From contig NZ_QHLZ01000003.1 of the NCBI RefSeq assembly GCF_003185915.1, forward strand, positions 234,489 through 298,488: a stretch of DNA of 64,000 bases, given 5' to 3'. The DNA comes from Arthrobacter psychrochitiniphilus (GTDB lineage Bacteria > Actinomycetota > Actinomycetes > Actinomycetales > Micrococcaceae). The notes beneath the pieces are model-generated. The model was given only the letters and a program-made list of their open reading frames with translations. It ran no database searches and was not told where the DNA came from. Position numbers and translations under genes: made by a program. This document shows positions 44,409 to 55,806 of this stretch, piece after piece; position 1 is the stretch's first letter, and every line of letters begins with the position of its first letter.

Positions 44409-46343
44409 ATGTGTGGAATTGTGGGATACGCCGGTACCGCCCCGGCTCAAAGTACTGCAGCATCAGCTGGGCAACGCGCTCTTGAGGTAATTGTGGAGGG
44501 ACTAAGGCGGCTTGAATACCGGGGTTACGACTCCGCTGGTATTGCGGTGGTTGGCGCTGATGGCATCGCGATGCGCAAGAAGAGCGGAAAACTTGTCAAA
44601 CTCTTGGAAGAGCTGGCACTGCACCCGCTCCCCGCCGCAACGGCCGGGATCGGGCATACCCGCTGGGCTACACACGGCGGTCCCACCGATGCCAATGCCC
44701 ATCCCCATGTGGTTGGCGGCGGCAGCTTGGCCGTGGTGCACAACGGGATTATTGAAAACTACTCAGGACTCAAAGCTGACTTACTGGAACGCGGGCACAG
44801 TTTCGCTTCCGAGACCGACAGCGAAGTTGCCGCCACCTTGCTGGGCGAAATCTACGCCAGCCTGGGCGCGGATGGCGGTGATGCGGATGGCGCCGCGGAT
44901 GGTCCAGTGGCCGGCGGTGGCAGGCTCGCCTCGGCCATGCGGCTTGTGGGGCAGCAACTCGACGGCGCTTTCACCTTGGTGGCCACGCATGTGGCGGAAC
45001 CTGGCGTAGTGGTGGCCGCCCGCCGCAACTCTCCTTTGGTAGTGGGGTTGGGTGATGGGGAGAACTTCCTGGGCTCGGACGTTTCGGGATTCATTGACTA
45101 CACCCGGCGGGCTGTTGAGCTGGGACAAAACCAGGTTGTCAGCATCACCGGCACGTCCGTGGAGATCACTGATTTTTACGGTACCCCGGCGCAGGGCCGT
45201 GAATACTTGGTGGACTGGGATTCGGCAGCTGCTGAAAAGGGCGGGTATCCCTCCTTTATGGAGAAGGAAATCAATGACCAGCCCGACGCCGTCGCCCAAA
45301 CCCTGCTGGGCCGGACCAACGGCGAGGGTGTCCTAACACTCGATGAATTGCGGGTTGACCCGTCAGTTCTCAAGTCCATCAACCGAATCATTGTGCTTGC
45401 TTGCGGCACCTCCGCCTATGCCGGACAGGTAGCCCGGTACGCCATTGAGCACTGGTGCAGGATCCCCACCGAGGTGGAGCTCTCTCACGAATTCAGGTAC
45501 CGGGATCCCATTGTGGATGAACGCACCCTTGTGGTCTCTATTTCCCAATCCGGGGAAACCATGGACACCTTGATGGCTGTTCGCTATGCCAAGGAGCAAG
45601 GCGCCGTTACGGTCTCGATCTGTAACACCAATGGTTCCACGATTCCCCGCGAATCAGACGCGGTGCTATACACGCATGCGGGGCCGGAGATTGCCGTGGC
45701 CTCCACCAAGGCGTTCCTGGCCCAAATTACGGCCACCTATCTGCTGGGACTTTATTTGGCACAGCTGCGCGGAAACTTGTTCCAAGGCCAAATCAAGGAC
45801 ATTCTGGCCGAACTGGCCAAGACCCCCGCAAAGATAGCGCGCGTTCTGGAGAACGCAGAGCAGGTCAAGGAACTTGCCCGCAGCATGGCCGAGACCCGCA
45901 CCGTGCTCTTCCTGGGCAGGCACGTGGGCTATCCGGTAGCCATGGAAGGGGCCTTAAAGCTCAAAGAACTGGCCTACATCCATGCTGAAGGTTTTGCCGC
46001 GGGGGAGTTGAAGCACGGGCCCATCGCACTCATTGAAGAAGGCCAGCCCGTCATTGTGGTGGTTCCTTCGCCGCGGGGGCGTGATTCGCTCCACGCCAAA
46101 GTGGTCTCCAACATCCAAGAGGTACGGGCGCGCGGCGCCAAGACCATTGTGATCGCCGAAGAAGGCGATGAATCCGTGCGGGAGCACGCAGAGCATGTGT
46201 TCTACATTCCCGAGACAAGCACGCTCCTAGCCCCTCTTCTGGCAACGGTACCGCTGCAGATCTTTGCGCTGGAACTGGCCACGGCCAAGGGCTATGACGT
46301 GGATCAGCCCCGCAACCTGGCCAAGTCCGTCACCGTGGAATAA
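44409..46343 (+). CDS. glmS: Glutamine-fructose-6-phosphate aminotransferase
   Basis: GlmS makes glucosamine-6-phosphate from fructose-6-phosphate and glutamine. ATG 44409 places Cys2 as the catalytic nucleophile (MCGIVGYAG). The glutaminase domain has RRLEYRGYDSAG and GHTRWATHGGPTDANAHPH; two SIS isomerase domains follow (CGTSAYAGQVARY; LGRHVGYPVAMEGALKLKE) and the end is QPRNLAKSVTVE. At 644 aa it is longer than the usual 605-625; a Gly/Asp/Ala-rich insert around residues 155-180 (GADGGDADGAADG) accounts for this. It is followed by acpS and nnr, possibly one operon. Confidence 0.97.
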   Translation: MCGIVGYAGTAPAQSTAASAGQRALEVIVEGLRRLEYRGYDSAGIAVVGADGIAMRKKSGKLVKLLEELALHPLPAATAGIGHTRWATHGGPTDANAHPHVVGGGSLAVVHNGIIENYSGLKADLLERGHSFASETDSEVAATLLGEIYASLGADGGDADGAADGPVAGGGRLASAMRLVGQQLDGAFTLVATHVAEPGVVVAARRNSPLVVGLGDGENFLGSDVSGFIDYTRRAVELGQNQVVSITGTSVEITDFYGTPAQGREYLVDWDSAAAEKGGYPSFMEKEINDQPDAVAQTLLGRTNGEGVLTLDELRVDPSVLKSINRIIVLACGTSAYAGQVARYAIEHWCRIPTEVELSHEFRYRDPIVDERTLVVSISQSGETMDTLMAVRYAKEQGAVTVSICNTNGSTIPRESDAVLYTHAGPEIAVASTKAFLAQITATYLLGLYLAQLRGNLFQGQIKDILAELAKTPAKIARVLENAEQVKELARSMAETRTVLFLGRHVGYPVAMEGALKLKELAYIHAEGFAAGELKHGPIALIEEGQPVIVVVPSPRGRDSLHAKVVSNIQEVRARGAKTIVIAEEGDESVREHAEHVFYIPETSTLLAPLLATVPLQIFALELATAKGYDVDQPRNLAKSVTVE

Positions 46344-51709: not shown

Positions 51710-52789
51710 GTGTCCAATCATCCTATTCGGGTTGCCATCGTAGGCGTCGGCAACTGTGCCGCGTCCTTGGTGCAGGGTGTCCAGTACTACCAGAACGCTG
51801 ATGCCAGCGTGAAGGTTCCGGGCCTGATGCACGTTGAGTTCGGCCAGTACCACGTCAATGACGTGCATTTCGTGGCAGCATTTGACGTTGACAGCAAAAA
51901 AGTCGGTCTGGATCTCTCTGAGGCCATTGGTGCCAGTGAGAACAACACCATCAAGATTGCCGATGTCCCCCACCTGGACGTTCCTGTCCTGCGCGGGACC
52001 ACTCTTGATGGTCTGGGTAAGTACTACCGCGAAACGATCGTTGAATCTGACGCCGAAGCGGTTGACGTGGTGGCCGAGCTGAAGGCCTCCAAGGTTGACG
52101 TTTTGGTTTGCTACTTGCCGGTTGGCTCTGATGCTGCCGCCAAATTTTATGCACAGTGCGCCATTGACGCTGGCGTAGCTTTTGTCAATGCCCTGCCCGT
52201 GTTCATTGCAGGTACCAAGGAGTGGGCCGACAAGTTCACTGCAGCCGGTGTGCCGATTGTTGGCGATGACATCAAGTCCCAGATTGGTGCAACCATCACG
52301 CACCGTGTCATGGCTAAGCTCTTCGAAGACCGCGGCGTGGTTCTGGACCGCACCTACCAGCTCAACGTTGGCGGCAACATGGACTTCAAGAACATGCTTG
52401 AGCGTGAGCGCCTTGAGTCCAAGAAGATCTCCAAGACCCAAGCTGTCACCTCCAACACCTCGGCTGTGCTCAGTGAAGACGACGTCCACATTGGGCCGTC
52501 GGACTACGTAGCGTGGCTCGATGACCGCAAGTGGGCTTTTGTCCGTCTCGAAGGCCGCAACTTCGGTGACGCCCCGGTTTCCCTGGAGTACAAGCTTGAA
52601 GTGTGGGACTCTCCCAACTCGGCCGGTGTCATCATCGACGCTATCCGTGCAGCCAAGATCGCTCTGGACCGCGGCATTGGCGGACCGATCCTCTCGGCTT
52701 CGAGCTACTTCATGAAGTCCCCGCCGGAGCAGTACGCCGACGACATCGCCCACGAAAAGGTAGAAGCCTTCATCCGAGGCGAAATCTAG
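51710..52789 (+). CDS. ino1: Inositol-3-phosphate synthase
   Basis: The enzyme converts glucose-6-phosphate to inositol-3-phosphate, feeding mycothiol and phosphatidylinositol. The 359-aa product is the short actinobacterial form, with the NAD-binding [20 protein letters not shown] near the N-terminus, [12 protein letters not shown], and [15 protein letters not shown] 51710 has AAGGAG upstream. mshA, the next mycothiol step, is 3 kb downstream on the other strand. Confidence 0.96.
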
Positions 52790-52799
52790 CCCCACTACC

Positions 52800-52850
52800 G
52801 ACGCTATCTCACCTTTGGTGTGTTTTTTCTAGACGCTATCCCACCAATAG
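52800..52850 (+). repeat. Left cluster of the GACGCTATCCCACC repeat
   Basis: Two copies in the same orientation: GACGCTATCTCACC at 52800-52813 and GACGCTATCCCACCAATAG at 52832-52850. They begin 11 bp after the ino1 stop and mark the left edge of the endonuclease-gene segment. Confidence 0.85.
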
Positions 52851-52856
52851 TTGGAT

Positions 52857-52897
52857 AAAACAGAACGCTCTCTCATTGTGAGGGGGCGTTCTGTTTT
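52857..52897. terminator. Bidirectional terminator between ino1 and the endonuclease-like gene
   Basis: A 15-bp stem CAGAACGCTCTCTCA/TGAGGGGGCGTTCTG with two G-U pairs is flanked by AAAA and TTTT, so it works on both strands. The left arm contains ACGCTCTCTCA, a degenerate form of the neighbouring repeat core. Confidence 0.88.
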
Positions 52898-52930
52898 GGG
52901 ATCAGCTCAGGGTATCTGTATGCCGCGTAG

Positions 52931-53890
52931 CTAGGCTTTGCGCTGGCCCGAGGAAAATCCGGATTCGATGGAGGGGTCAGTCCAAGCGGTCCGCAAAGCA
53001 CGCTTGATAAGGAGCGTTGCGGATTCAAACCCATCGGCCACATCCTCCTGTGTGAACACCAGGACTGTCCAACCAGCGTCTCTGAAAGCTCTGTCCCGCC
53101 GCCTGTCGCTGTGGCGCTGGACCTCATCAAGGTGATGGGCGCCGTCGTACTGTAAGGCAATGCGACGATCACGATAGCCGGCATCGGCAGAGGGTGCGTC
53201 ATCGCGGTCCCAGAGCTTGATCTGCAGATCGGGTTCGGGCAGTCCGGCGTTGATCATGGCCAACCGCAAAAGTGTTTCAGGGCCGGAATCGGAGCCCACC
53301 CGCACCAGCTCGAGTGCATCCCTTGCACGGACAATTCCTTGCAAGTTTCGGTGCCTATCAAGTATGGCCCGCAAGGATGCAAGGGTGGCGTAGGGCTCCT
53401 CACGGTCCTCAAATATGGCTCGGGGAATGCGCACGAGCTGGTCGCCCATGCACACTAAATCCGCTAGCGAGAGCACCCGTGCCATGTCCAGCCAAGTGCG
53501 GGCTCGGGTGCTAAGGCGCAGTTCTCCGTCTAGCTCGGTTTCGTCAGGAAATGCCGTCATCTTGTGTGCATTGATGCCCCTGCGCCGAACCCCTGAAGTA
53601 TGCCGTGGGCGGCTGATGTGCAGGTCGTTGGAGTCGCCAAGCCAGGGCGGCAAGATGAGCTGGTGCAACCGTGCCGCCGTCGAATGGGAGATCCATGCGC
53701 CTGGCGAGGCTGCGCACAGGGCCCGTGCCGCTTCCTTCAACTCGAAATTCCAGCCGAATGGACGGTAGATGCCGTAACTGACGCCTTCCACTTCCTTGCC
53801 GCGCAGCCGCTGCCGGGGCAGACCTCGGGACTGCGCCTCACCGACAGTGAATGGGCGCTCAGGGATGAGGGGTGCTGGTTGAGGCTCCAT
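52931..53890 (-). CDS. AbiEi-like/DUF559 protein with VSR-type endonuclease fold
   Basis: The 319-aa product has two parts. Residues about 12-45 (PFTVGEAQSRGLPRQRLRGK..GIYR) look like the winged-helix segment of AbiEi-type proteins. The C-terminus, about 200-305, fits the VSR/DUF559 PD-(D/E)XK fold: a helix with PETLLRLAMINAG (Glu205), then ADAGYRDRRIALQYDGAHH (Asp236, Gln247-Tyr-Asp249, His252) and a basic helix DRRRDRAFRDAGWTVLVFT. Gln in place of the usual Glu before YDG appears in actinobacterial members I recall. It would nick or cut DNA if active; no partner methylase is present. The gene is flanked by oppositely oriented copies of one repeat. Its role is unknown. Confidence 0.85.
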   Translation of the reverse strand: MEPQPAPLIPERPFTVGEAQSRGLPRQRLRGKEVEGVSYGIYRPFGWNFELKEAARALCAASPGAWISHSTAARLHQLILPPWLGDSNDLHISRPRHTSGVRRRGINAHKMTAFPDETELDGELRLSTRARTWLDMARVLSLADLVCMGDQLVRIPRAIFEDREEPYATLASLRAILDRHRNLQGIVRARDALELVRVGSDSGPETLLRLAMINAGLPEPDLQIKLWDRDDAPSADAGYRDRRIALQYDGAHHLDEVQRHSDRRRDRAFRDAGWTVLVFTQEDVADGFESATLLIKRALRTAWTDPSIESGFSSGQRKA

Positions 53891-53929
53891 GAATATATTG
53901 TGGTCTTGAAACGGAACCTGCGTGCAAAG

Positions 53930-53938
53930 TTATCCACA
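53930..53938 (+). other. Consensus DnaA box beside the repeat
   Basis: TTATCCACA, a perfect DnaA box, sits 40 bp upstream of the endonuclease-like gene and directly abuts the hairpin repeat. One such 9-mer is not unexpected by chance in 64 kb. Confidence 0.4.
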
Positions 53939-54061
53939 GGCGCTCTCCCACTTCTGGTTGGCGAGTAAAAGATGCCAAACAGAAGTGGGAGAGCGTCCCG
54001 CTAAAACCACCCATTGGTGGGAGAGCGTCCAGGAGAAATGCACCATTGGTGGGATAGCGTC
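53939..54061. repeat. Right cluster of the GACGCT(A/C)TCCCAC repeat, with hairpin
   Basis: Four copies. One is in the left-cluster orientation (GGCGCTCTCCCACTTCTG at 53939-53956) and pairs with an opposite copy (53979-53998) to form a hairpin with 22-nt arms (53941-53962 with 53974-53995, one mismatch, 11-nt loop). Two more opposite copies follow: CATTGGTGGGAGAGCGTC at 54012-54029 and CATTGGTGGGATAGCGTC at 54044-54061. The last ends 14 bp before the stop of the alpha-glucosidase frame. Confidence 0.88.
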
Positions 54062-54074
54062 GGTGGGTGGAGGG

Positions 54075-55806
54075 TTAGGGGGCGAGCCATAGGGTGGTTT
54101 CTGCCGGGATTATTCCCGCCGAAATTCCCGCGCCAGTAGCACCTTCATCCGCTACTACCGACTCGCCGGAACTGATCGCAACCCTGGCAGGCTCGACGCC
54201 GGGCGGCAACACTGCGGGCACCGAGGCAAAGTTGGTGAGCACCTCCCAGCCGTTGGGCCGGCGGTAGTGCACCACCCTCTGACTCGGGTGCGCTGAGCCA
54301 TTCCAGGATCTCCTCGCACTGCAGCTCGCGCCGCAACTTCAGCGCGGCACGGTACATTTCCAGCGTGGAACCCGGCACACCGTCTTGGACGCTGGCTGCT
54401 AGCGCGCCGAACCCGGCCGGCTGTGGCAGCCACGGCGTGCCGCCGAAACCGAAGTTTTCCCCGGTGGGCGTCCACGGCAGCGGCACACGGCAACCGTCGC
54501 GACCCTTGACCTGGTGGCCCGTACGGAACCAAGTGGGGTCTTGCAACGAGTCATGCGGCAGGTCCGCCACCTCGAACAGTCCCAGTTCCTCACCCTGATA
54601 CAGGTAGGCGGAGCCGGGCAGCCCCAGCATGAACAGCGTCGCGGCCCTGGCCCGGCGCAAACCGCGCGCCTGATCAGTAACGGGAGTGACGCCGTCGGCC
54701 ATCAACCACGATTCCAGATCCGCCAGCGTGCTCTCATCCGGCAGGGCGTAGCGGGAAGCATGGCGGATGACGTCGTGGTTGGAGAACACCCAGGTGGAGG
54801 AGGCGCCGGAGGCCGCAGCCTCAACGAGGCACTTCTGCGCAATGGCACGGAATTCAACACCGTCGAAGTGCGCCTGCAGAAGGTCAAAGTTGAACGCCTG
54901 GCCCAACTCGGTAGGGCGCGCATACTTCAGGCGACGCTCCGTGAACGGGACCCAGGCCTCGGCCACGGCGGCCTTGGGCGGAGTGTATTCGTTGAGTACT
55001 GTGCGCCAGCCTTCGAAGATTTCATGCACGGCGTCGCGGTCAAAGAGCGGATCAGAGCCGTCACTGACAAGGATTTCCAGCTCCGGTTTGGACCGTAACG
55101 GCAGTGACATATCCTTCGCCAGCCCGTGCGCCACGTCCACACGGAAGCCGTCCACGCCCCGGTCCGCCCAGAAACGCAAGGTGGTGTGGAAGTCCTCACG
55201 CACCTCCGGGTGGTCCCAGTTGAAATCGGGCTGCTCGGTGGCGAACAAGTGCAGGTACCACTGGCCCAGCTGGCCGGCATTGGGGCCGGCGGCCTCCACC
55301 ACACGGGTCCACGCGGGCCCGCCAAAGTGGGAAGGCCAGTCTGACGGCGGCAACTCACCGTTCTCTCCCAACCCGTCAAAGAACTGGTAGCGGGCGCGCT
55401 CTGGCGAGCCCGGCGCTGCGGCGAGGGCGGCTTTGAACCATTCGTGATGGTTGGAGGAATGGTTGGGGACCACATCTACTATGACCTTAATATTCGCGGC
55501 ATGGGCCGCTGAGACCATGGCATCAAAGTCATCCAAGGAGCCGAGCCGGGGATCGACGTTGCGGTAATCATCAACGTCATAGCCGCCATCGGCCAAGGCG
55601 GAGGGATAGAACGGGCTGAGCCAGATCGCGTCAATGCCCAATGCCGAAAGGTAGCCCATACGGGCGGTGACACCGGGCAGATCACCCATGCCGTCACCGT
55701 TGGCATCAGCGAAGCTGCGCGGATAAATTTGGTACACCGCGGCTTGGCGCCACCAGTTGGCATCGGGGCTGAAGGGGGCGGCATCGGGTGAATTGGGAAA
55801 AGTCAT
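54075..55806 (-). pseudogene. GH13 alpha-glucosidase, frameshifted near the C-terminus
   Basis: This enzyme class hydrolyses terminal alpha-glucosidic bonds of maltodextrins or isomaltose. From ATG 55806 the frame encodes DANWWRQAAVYQIYPRSFADANGDG, VDVVPNHSSNHHEWF, the nucleophile region DGFRVDVAH, the acid/base AEAWVP, and FSNHDVIRH. After ...EWLSAPESE the original frame runs into unrelated residues and stops at 54145. The expected C-terminal beta-domain (VHYRRPNGWEVLTNFASVP.., ending at TAA 54075) continues in another frame. Removing one base from the CCC run at 54275-54277 (GGG on the coding strand) restores a single frame. The catalytic barrel is intact, so partial activity is conceivable. 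A sequencing error in the run is possible. Confidence 0.82.

Follow-up and report, generated by a model that had tools for sequence, protein, structure and literature searches.

Within the analysed DNA of Arthrobacter psychrochitiniphilus (a stretch of 64,000 nucleotides, hereafter the window), a gene for an endonuclease-like protein is enclosed by oppositely oriented copies of one short repeat, and this arrangement raises the question whether protein and repeat belong together and, if so, in what kind of genetic system. The gene is located between two convergent genes, and the neighbouring open reading frames (ORFs) were recognized by eye as those of inositol-phosphate synthase (ino1, 51710-52789) and a glycosidase. 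The following features make up the locus:

52797-52875, forward strand: left arm of the bracketing 79-nt inverted repeat
52800-52831, forward strand: repeat unit 1 of the left array, with the core GACGCTATCTCAC
52832-52863, forward strand: repeat unit 2 of the left array, with the core GACGCTATCCCAC
52857-52897, no strand assigned: hairpin holding a degenerate unit (52864-52876, two mismatches)
52931-53890, reverse strand: gene of the AbiEi-like/DUF559 (Vsr-fold) nuclease, 319 amino acids, from the ORF list, Pfam, PADLOC, AlphaFold and structure matches
53930-53938, forward strand: DnaA box TTATCCACA, 40-48 bp upstream of the start codon of the nuclease gene
53939-53997: hairpin of the right array, in which a forward core (53939-53951, one mismatch) pairs with a reverse core (53985-53997)
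53986-54064, reverse strand: right arm of the bracketing 79-nt inverted repeat
54017-54029, reverse strand: repeat core of the right array
54049-54061, reverse strand: repeat core of the right array

Exact cores of the sequence GACGCTMTCYCAC were located at 52800 and 52832 on the forward strand and at 53985, 54017 and 54049 on the reverse strand, together with a copy carrying one mismatch at 53939 (forward) and a seventh, degenerate copy with two mismatches at 52864 (forward). The repeat is 32 bp long, and the copies on each side of the gene are spaced by 32 bp. The first-pass annotation had described six copies, two on the left and, on the right, three in the opposite orientation plus one paired in a hairpin; the mapped cores match this layout and add the seventh copy. 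Its remark that no similar run of copies is present elsewhere in the window also holds, the single outside site being that at 45476, with two mismatches. The number of copies in the window at up to two mismatches is not significant (8 versus 5.35 expected, a count at least as high being reached in 19 of 100 shuffles). The two arms of the 79-nt inverted repeat, one on either side of the nuclease gene, are 77% complementary, and those of the hairpin in the right array comprise positions 53941-53962 and 53974-53995. Folded as single-stranded DNA, the two elements of the window and one dispersed element (L017) formed far more stable structures than their shuffled counterparts (z of -5.7, -9.2 and -11.3), and over four elements the hairpin strength ranged from z -5.7 to -12.6. 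A search of RNA families with the right hairpin returned only sub-threshold, chance-like matches to miRNAs, and a known RNA family was rejected on these grounds. The hairpin at 52857-52897 probably acts as a terminator in both directions, for ino1 as well as for the nuclease gene. As a separate observation, the glycosidase ORF ends at 54145, and in relatives the end corresponds to about 54075 (window positions 54075-54532); the overlapping ORF at this end suggests a frameshift, caused by either a decayed end or an assembly error.

The ORF has the length of 319 amino acids given in the first-pass annotation, and the AbiEi-like N-terminus and VSR/DUF559-like C-terminus proposed there were confirmed by Pfam, PADLOC and structure matches. 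The Pfam profile DUF559 (PF04480) matched with an E-value of 1.1e-4 and 22.5 bits, above the curated cut-off of 20.6, and the PADLOC profile of AbiEi matched residues 14-139 with an E-value of 8.7e-11. Foldseek alone returned no match at E<=0.001 with the AlphaFold model of the protein (pLDDT 89.5); the fold matches were obtained domain-wise with a second aligner. Residues 4-197 resemble the whole of AbiEi, as represented by the Streptococcus agalactiae protein (6y8q; Z 11.1, 174 residues, rmsd 5.3). In contrast to the AbiE type IV toxin-antitoxin system, this part is fused to a nuclease, and no AbiEii-type toxin gene is adjacent among the neighbouring ORFs read by eye. Residues 200-304 share the fold of Vsr and of the EDxHD homing endonucleases, with matches to the catalytic domain of I-Bth0305I (Z 12.0, rmsd 2.4), to NGO0050 (Z 10.8) and to Vsr (1cw0; Z 10.2, rmsd 2.8, 100 residues aligned), and TnsA was also among the fold matches (Z 7.3). 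Unlike the homing endonucleases, the gene is associated with neither an intron nor an intein, and whole sites bracket it, none being interrupted. In spite of the Vsr fold, a score for the Vsr mismatch endonuclease family TIGR00632 was absent at E<=0.1; NCBIfam gave no match for the protein, and the domain search revealed no transposase domain in it. The residues E205, D236, H253, Q258 and D262, which we take to be the EDxHD set, are invariant in 59 sequences. The orthologue clade carries the motif QYDG, and four paralogues carry EYxG; since the usual acidic residue of EYxG is replaced by Q in the orthologue clade, catalysis may be different or reduced there, to judge from the motif.

The association of gene and repeat was examined in relatives detected at E<=1e-10, which are present in all 23 genomes of the genus that were analysed, a flank match being defined as an inverted score of at least 16. 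Of 133 match rows for the genus, 92 (91 loci) went, with L024 in addition, into the set of 92 strongest relatives; the other 41, which were the weakest, followed later, and all of them were tested except L387, whose flank is cut by a contig end. Homologues of the gene do not regularly lack flanking repeats; a regular lack would have spoken against the unit proposed in the first-pass annotation. Inverted matching flanks were found in 78 of the 92 strongest relatives and in 95 of all 132 testable ones, including 17 of the 40 weaker relatives, versus 3 among 222 control genes, which were taken from twenty stretches of 20 kb; by this measure 37 of 500 swapped flank pairs scored as inverted match. 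Counting either orientation, the figures were 100 of 132 relatives versus 4 of 222 controls, so that 32 of the 132 loci had no flank match at all and 37 had no inverted one. Among the 40 weaker relatives, 20 had matching flanks in either orientation, and the flanks are less certain here because many of these relatives match only part of the gene. Of the three matching controls, one looks by eye like a transposase gene bounded by its own ends and another like a gene that two dispersed palindromes happen to flank.

A second set of named genomes, overlapping the genus set in part, was obtained with an alignment query of genome contigs that yielded 559 relatives, the best 80 of which were kept; a single-protein scan had yielded none. 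After L274, L279 and L291 had been left out on account of short flanks, inverted flanks were present in 57 of the 77 loci from these best 80 of 559 relatives versus 59 of 600 swapped pairs, with 20 loci lacking inverted flanks and 18 lacking a match in either orientation. Two loci with an Arthrobacter-like appearance, L232 and L291, derive from one record entitled Sporosarcina beigongshangi and another from an Acidobacteria MAG, both of which are probably contaminated or mislabelled. For other genera of the class, 28 of 40 match rows outside the window genome were taken and L211 was dropped as short, and 24 of the 27 remaining genes were flanked in either orientation, four of them matching only part of the gene. 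The 27 orthologues are 61-71% identical, and their arrays differ in sequence in most species, with a 32-bp repeat present in 47 of 54 orthologue flanks; single palindromes of some 60 bp enclose many of the distant paralogues. The window genome contains one cassette of the window type and a 31% identical paralogue with another palindrome. Two genomes of other genera, G063 (L206, L224) and G081 (L207, L225), contain two cassettes each of the same palindrome kind, which may reflect cassette duplication. The pairing of a nuclease gene with a private palindrome is firm and recurs in many lineages.

The repeats are not confined to the flanks of the gene. The exact core of the window is present in 21 copies in its own genome, with no copy of a reversed control pattern, an abundance well above chance expectation, and 16 of the 21 lie away from the nuclease gene. 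Several dispersed cores form gene-less nested palindromes, for instance with three plus three units (L001) or two plus two units (L017), and among the same-strand spacings below 100 bp in the core loci 19 of 21 are exactly 32 bp. One of the 21 cores (L003), situated within an ORF and with a sequence that is found again in G007, is probably a chance copy. In the 22 other genomes of the genus the window core occurs zero to two times each. The repeat RACGCTCGCTCAC was found in 18, 68, 77 and 71 copies in G001, G010, G018 and G019, in which the cassette bears this sequence, and in zero to four copies in the remaining 19 of the 23 genomes. The palindrome of L047 occupies 40 places in G009 (40 of 54 candidates scored), with nothing but one partial match, in G005, among the other 22 genomes, and that of the second paralogue in G009, L085, occupies 16 places in G009 and none in the 22 others. 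In other genera of the class, TGATCATGGAGAA is present in 30 copies in G063 and in 106 copies in G081, the cassettes of which carry it, and in zero to three copies in the other 58 genomes of the class set. A random distribution of the repeats with respect to DUF559 genes was rejected for these five types, because each of them is abundant only where the cassette bears the matching type.

In a broader comparison of 71 flank repeats with random stretches totalling 400 kb, 9 of 31 repeats from sampled genomes had a match in their own genome, and eight matched another species, mostly where a related paralogue exists. Privacy is by lineage and not absolute, related paralogues of different species sharing repeat types. 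Of 29 sampled sites, three of which are cassette flanks, 18 were located outside every called ORF, eight overlapped an ORF in part and three lay wholly inside, and 448 of 580 random points fell inside ORFs under simple ORF calling. Two further kinds of palindrome were noticed. In G009, a membrane-protein-like gene (L134:11129-12967) lies between two TTGAGGCGTG-type palindromes; by eye these are unlike the flanks of the five cassettes of this genome and may form an orphan family or else depend on a more distant gene. Downstream of ino1 in G004 (L317), the empty site contains an unrelated strong palindrome with GATCTCGACAGGCTCGA, perhaps representing another dispersed family.

The first-pass annotation had proposed to compare presence and absence of the segment at the ino1 locus. 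The ino1 gene is located within 1.5 kb of 21 of the 27 orthologues; by eye, the ino1 site of G004 lacks the gene and both arrays together, and ino1 of G009 has another neighbour and no cassette. The gene appears to be mostly vertically inherited in the genus. The orthologue of G003 (L064) is frameshifted and its flanks do not match (score 11.5), which would fit a decay of the arrays after loss of the gene. The genomes G018 and G019, with an identity of about 99% over three compared loci, differ in the number of units in steps of 32 bp in four or more of the nine stretches that were paired, and in none of the nine was a whole dispersed element present in one genome and absent from the other. 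In G019, an insertion of about 1.3 kb that is transposase-like by eye (L196:14031-15380) is located inside an array that is unbroken in G018.

The divergence of repeat and protein was compared in 49 distinct orthologues, nine near-identical ones having been dropped. The unit approximates RACGCYCNCTCACNTNYGGSG, the first columns of which are conserved by construction because the anchor RAC[GC]C was imposed during unit picking; CAC at positions 11-13 is kept in 45 of 49, and several positions between and after vary. Repeat distance correlated with the distance of residues 14-60 (r 0.47) and 61-130 (r 0.50), and to a lower degree with that of residues 131-195 (r 0.13) and of the nuclease part, residues 196-316 (0.24). 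The partial correlation was 0.44 for the N-terminal part given the C-terminal part (p 0.002) and 0.12 in the reverse case, in Mantel tests that do not fully remove phylogeny. Windows of 12 residues starting at 31-47, which correspond to strands after the HTH in the model, gave partial correlations of 0.25-0.39, and the best single window comprised residues 63-74 (0.43); the segment 61-130 tracks the repeat no less closely than the wHTH. Divergence of the repeat parallels that of the AbiEi-like half more closely than that of the nuclease half, as expected of a repeat-reading N-terminal part, and AbiEi proteins bind inverted repeats, the antitoxins doing so in their own promoters, according to PMC7319586. 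The N-terminal part is therefore likely, on this indirect support, to read the repeat unit. That the protein acts on the repeat, offered as an inference in the first-pass annotation, is a reading now backed by the co-divergence of the repeat with the N-terminal part.

A further element of these loci is the DnaA box. The sequence TTATCCACA is present within 200 bp of all 27 orthologues and of 49 of 65 paralogues, upstream and in a single orientation at 66 of the 77 named loci from the best 80 of 559 relatives, and near no more than 9 of the 40 weaker ones among the genus relatives. Control DNA amounting to 400 kb contains it at two places, each beside a dnaA gene. Expression of the nuclease gene may respond to DnaA, and through the box a link to replication can be tested directly.

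We regard it as probable that, in a family of dispersed palindromes private to its lineage, the locus is the copy that bears the gene, and that this gene encodes the dedicated nuclease of the family. The AbiEi-like N-terminal part would recognize the repeat unit and the C-terminal Vsr/EDxHD-type nuclease would nick or cut the palindrome, probably in its extruded form, as a hairpin in single-stranded DNA at replication, to which the DnaA box in the promoter region would couple expression. Repair from another copy would then change the number of units, homogenize the copies and occasionally seed new ones. Cutting and spreading of the palindromes, as we infer them, represent the best-supported mechanism, although the change in unit number alone could be explained by replication slippage.

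It seems unlikely that the palindromes are instead operators by which the AbiEi-like part autoregulates its own gene, and perhaps others, without cutting or copying. The promoter binding of AbiEi antitoxins mentioned above and the position of the upstream copy, which abuts the DnaA box and the promoter region, are in line with operators. Matching copies are, however, also located downstream of the gene, the neighbours of the 29 sampled sites are convergent or co-directional with few exceptions, and stand-alone DUF559 genes without an AbiEi-like part are often bracketed too.

We assign a similarly low probability to an ordinary mobile element, with the arrays as terminal inverted repeats, the nuclease as a TnsA-like transposase and the gene-less copies as MITE-like deletion derivatives. 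The inverted bracketing, the joint absence of gene and arrays from G004, the cassette architecture of gene-less copies, the paired cassettes of G063 and G081, which look as if duplicated, and the fold match to TnsA are all compatible with such an element. They are countered by the single cassette of the window genome, the 31% paralogue of which carries another palindrome, by the position of 21 of 27 orthologues beside ino1 and by the lack of any known transposase domain. As to the several full copies expected of an insertion sequence, the window genome has one cassette and G063 has two with the same kind of palindrome. The suggestion of a minimal mobile unit in the first-pass annotation was not borne out in the sense of a self-mobile cassette, with the gene staying at ino1 in 21 of 27 orthologues and the dispersed copies being gene-less. 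A second point on which the results go beyond that annotation is the restriction of each repeat sequence to its lineage.

That the palindromes are host terminators or mRNA-stabilizing hairpins, kept alike by unrelated gene conversion and enclosing the nuclease gene by accident, is improbable and already disfavoured. Strong folding and the terminator-like inner hairpin would fit, but such hairpins do not account for the excess of matching flanks in relatives (78 of 92) over controls (3 of 222), for two paralogues in one genome (L047 and L085 of G009) each having its own private family, for the flank upstream of the promoter region or for the joint divergence of N-terminal part and repeat. A Vsr-like repair enzyme engaged in genome maintenance, with abundant palindromes as its chance target rather than an object of propagation, is very improbable, since it would leave the bracketing and the lineage-private repeats unexplained in spite of the Vsr fold and of Caulobacter VsrA, a DUF559 protein that PMC12907096 describes as required for the damage response on methyltransferase loss.

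With respect to the preferred reading, a palindrome family with its own nuclease, the closest known systems are the REP/RAYT pairs (REPtrons, REPINs). The likeness to REP sequences and their RAYT gene, with a nuclease in place of the transposase, that had been noticed in the first-pass annotation fits the inverted flanks and the dispersed gene-less copies: in both systems palindromes flank the gene, many gene-less copies are extragenic and the repeat type is matched to its own enzyme. Differences are the Vsr/DUF559-fold nuclease with an AbiEi-like DNA-binding part instead of an HUH Y1 transposase, the lack of a GTAG tag, the window cores ending in GACG/CGTC, as well as the 32-bp head-to-tail arrays of the orthologue clade and the upstream DnaA box. 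The Y1 (RAYT-type) transposase PF01797 is absent from nine of ten genomes, G000 included, and a RAYT as mover was rejected in view of a single Y1 match in one of the ten. The nuclease/palindrome pair resembles REP/RAYT in the way it works but does not belong to that system. A second parallel is provided by CGTC-tagged REPs, which according to Di Nocera et al. 2013 (PMC3733652) have a CGTC end, a stem of 8-9 bp, a loop of 4-5 nt and a CCA-like tail, and are apparently without a dedicated transposase. Many units of the orthologue clade, including those of the window, likewise end in GACG/CGTC and are extragenic, the likeness residing in the CGTC end.

The association extends to DUF559 genes of the stand-alone (YcjD) kind. 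In a sample of 19 of 38 plasmid records and E. coli K-12, in which several genes are close relatives and the ends of six unannotated genes were set by hand, matching flanks in either orientation were found for 11 of 19 genes versus 2 of 152 control ORFs, which were drawn from six of these plasmids. A DUF559 gene of Neisseria with direct repeats of about 115 bp containing a hairpin brings the overall count to 12 of 20. The inverted repeats on pSymB of S. meliloti measure about 114 bp, and E. coli ycjD has no flanking repeat. When the palindromes of six stand-alone genes were searched for in one other 50-kb stretch per plasmid, six places were found in S. meliloti and none in the other five. A phage origin was rejected, as 305 pattern matches in viral contigs included none that was confirmed and a phage collection yielded one unannotated match.

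In the literature examined, HUH transposases are the enzymes of those REP families whose partner is known, and a search of open-access literature found no paper linking DUF559 with palindromes. The data suggest that an enzyme and dispersed DNA palindromes are partners in a way not described before. More tentatively, and with somewhat less than even confidence, DUF559/Vsr-fold nucleases might constitute a second, non-HUH class of enzymes that create and maintain bacterial palindromes, each gene driving its own family by cutting hairpins at replication; such a class would extend over Actinomycetota, Pseudomonadota, Deinococcota and Cyanobacteriota, and the enzymes that transposase-less REP families lack may be among its members. 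If this is true, it would provide a candidate enzyme for orphan REPs such as the CGTC class, left enzyme-less by Di Nocera et al. 2013, and a function for DUF559 proteins, a nuclease family of unknown function. The natural series of 49 distinct protein-repeat pairs may, moreover, open the way to a DNA-recognition code for the AbiEi-like part.
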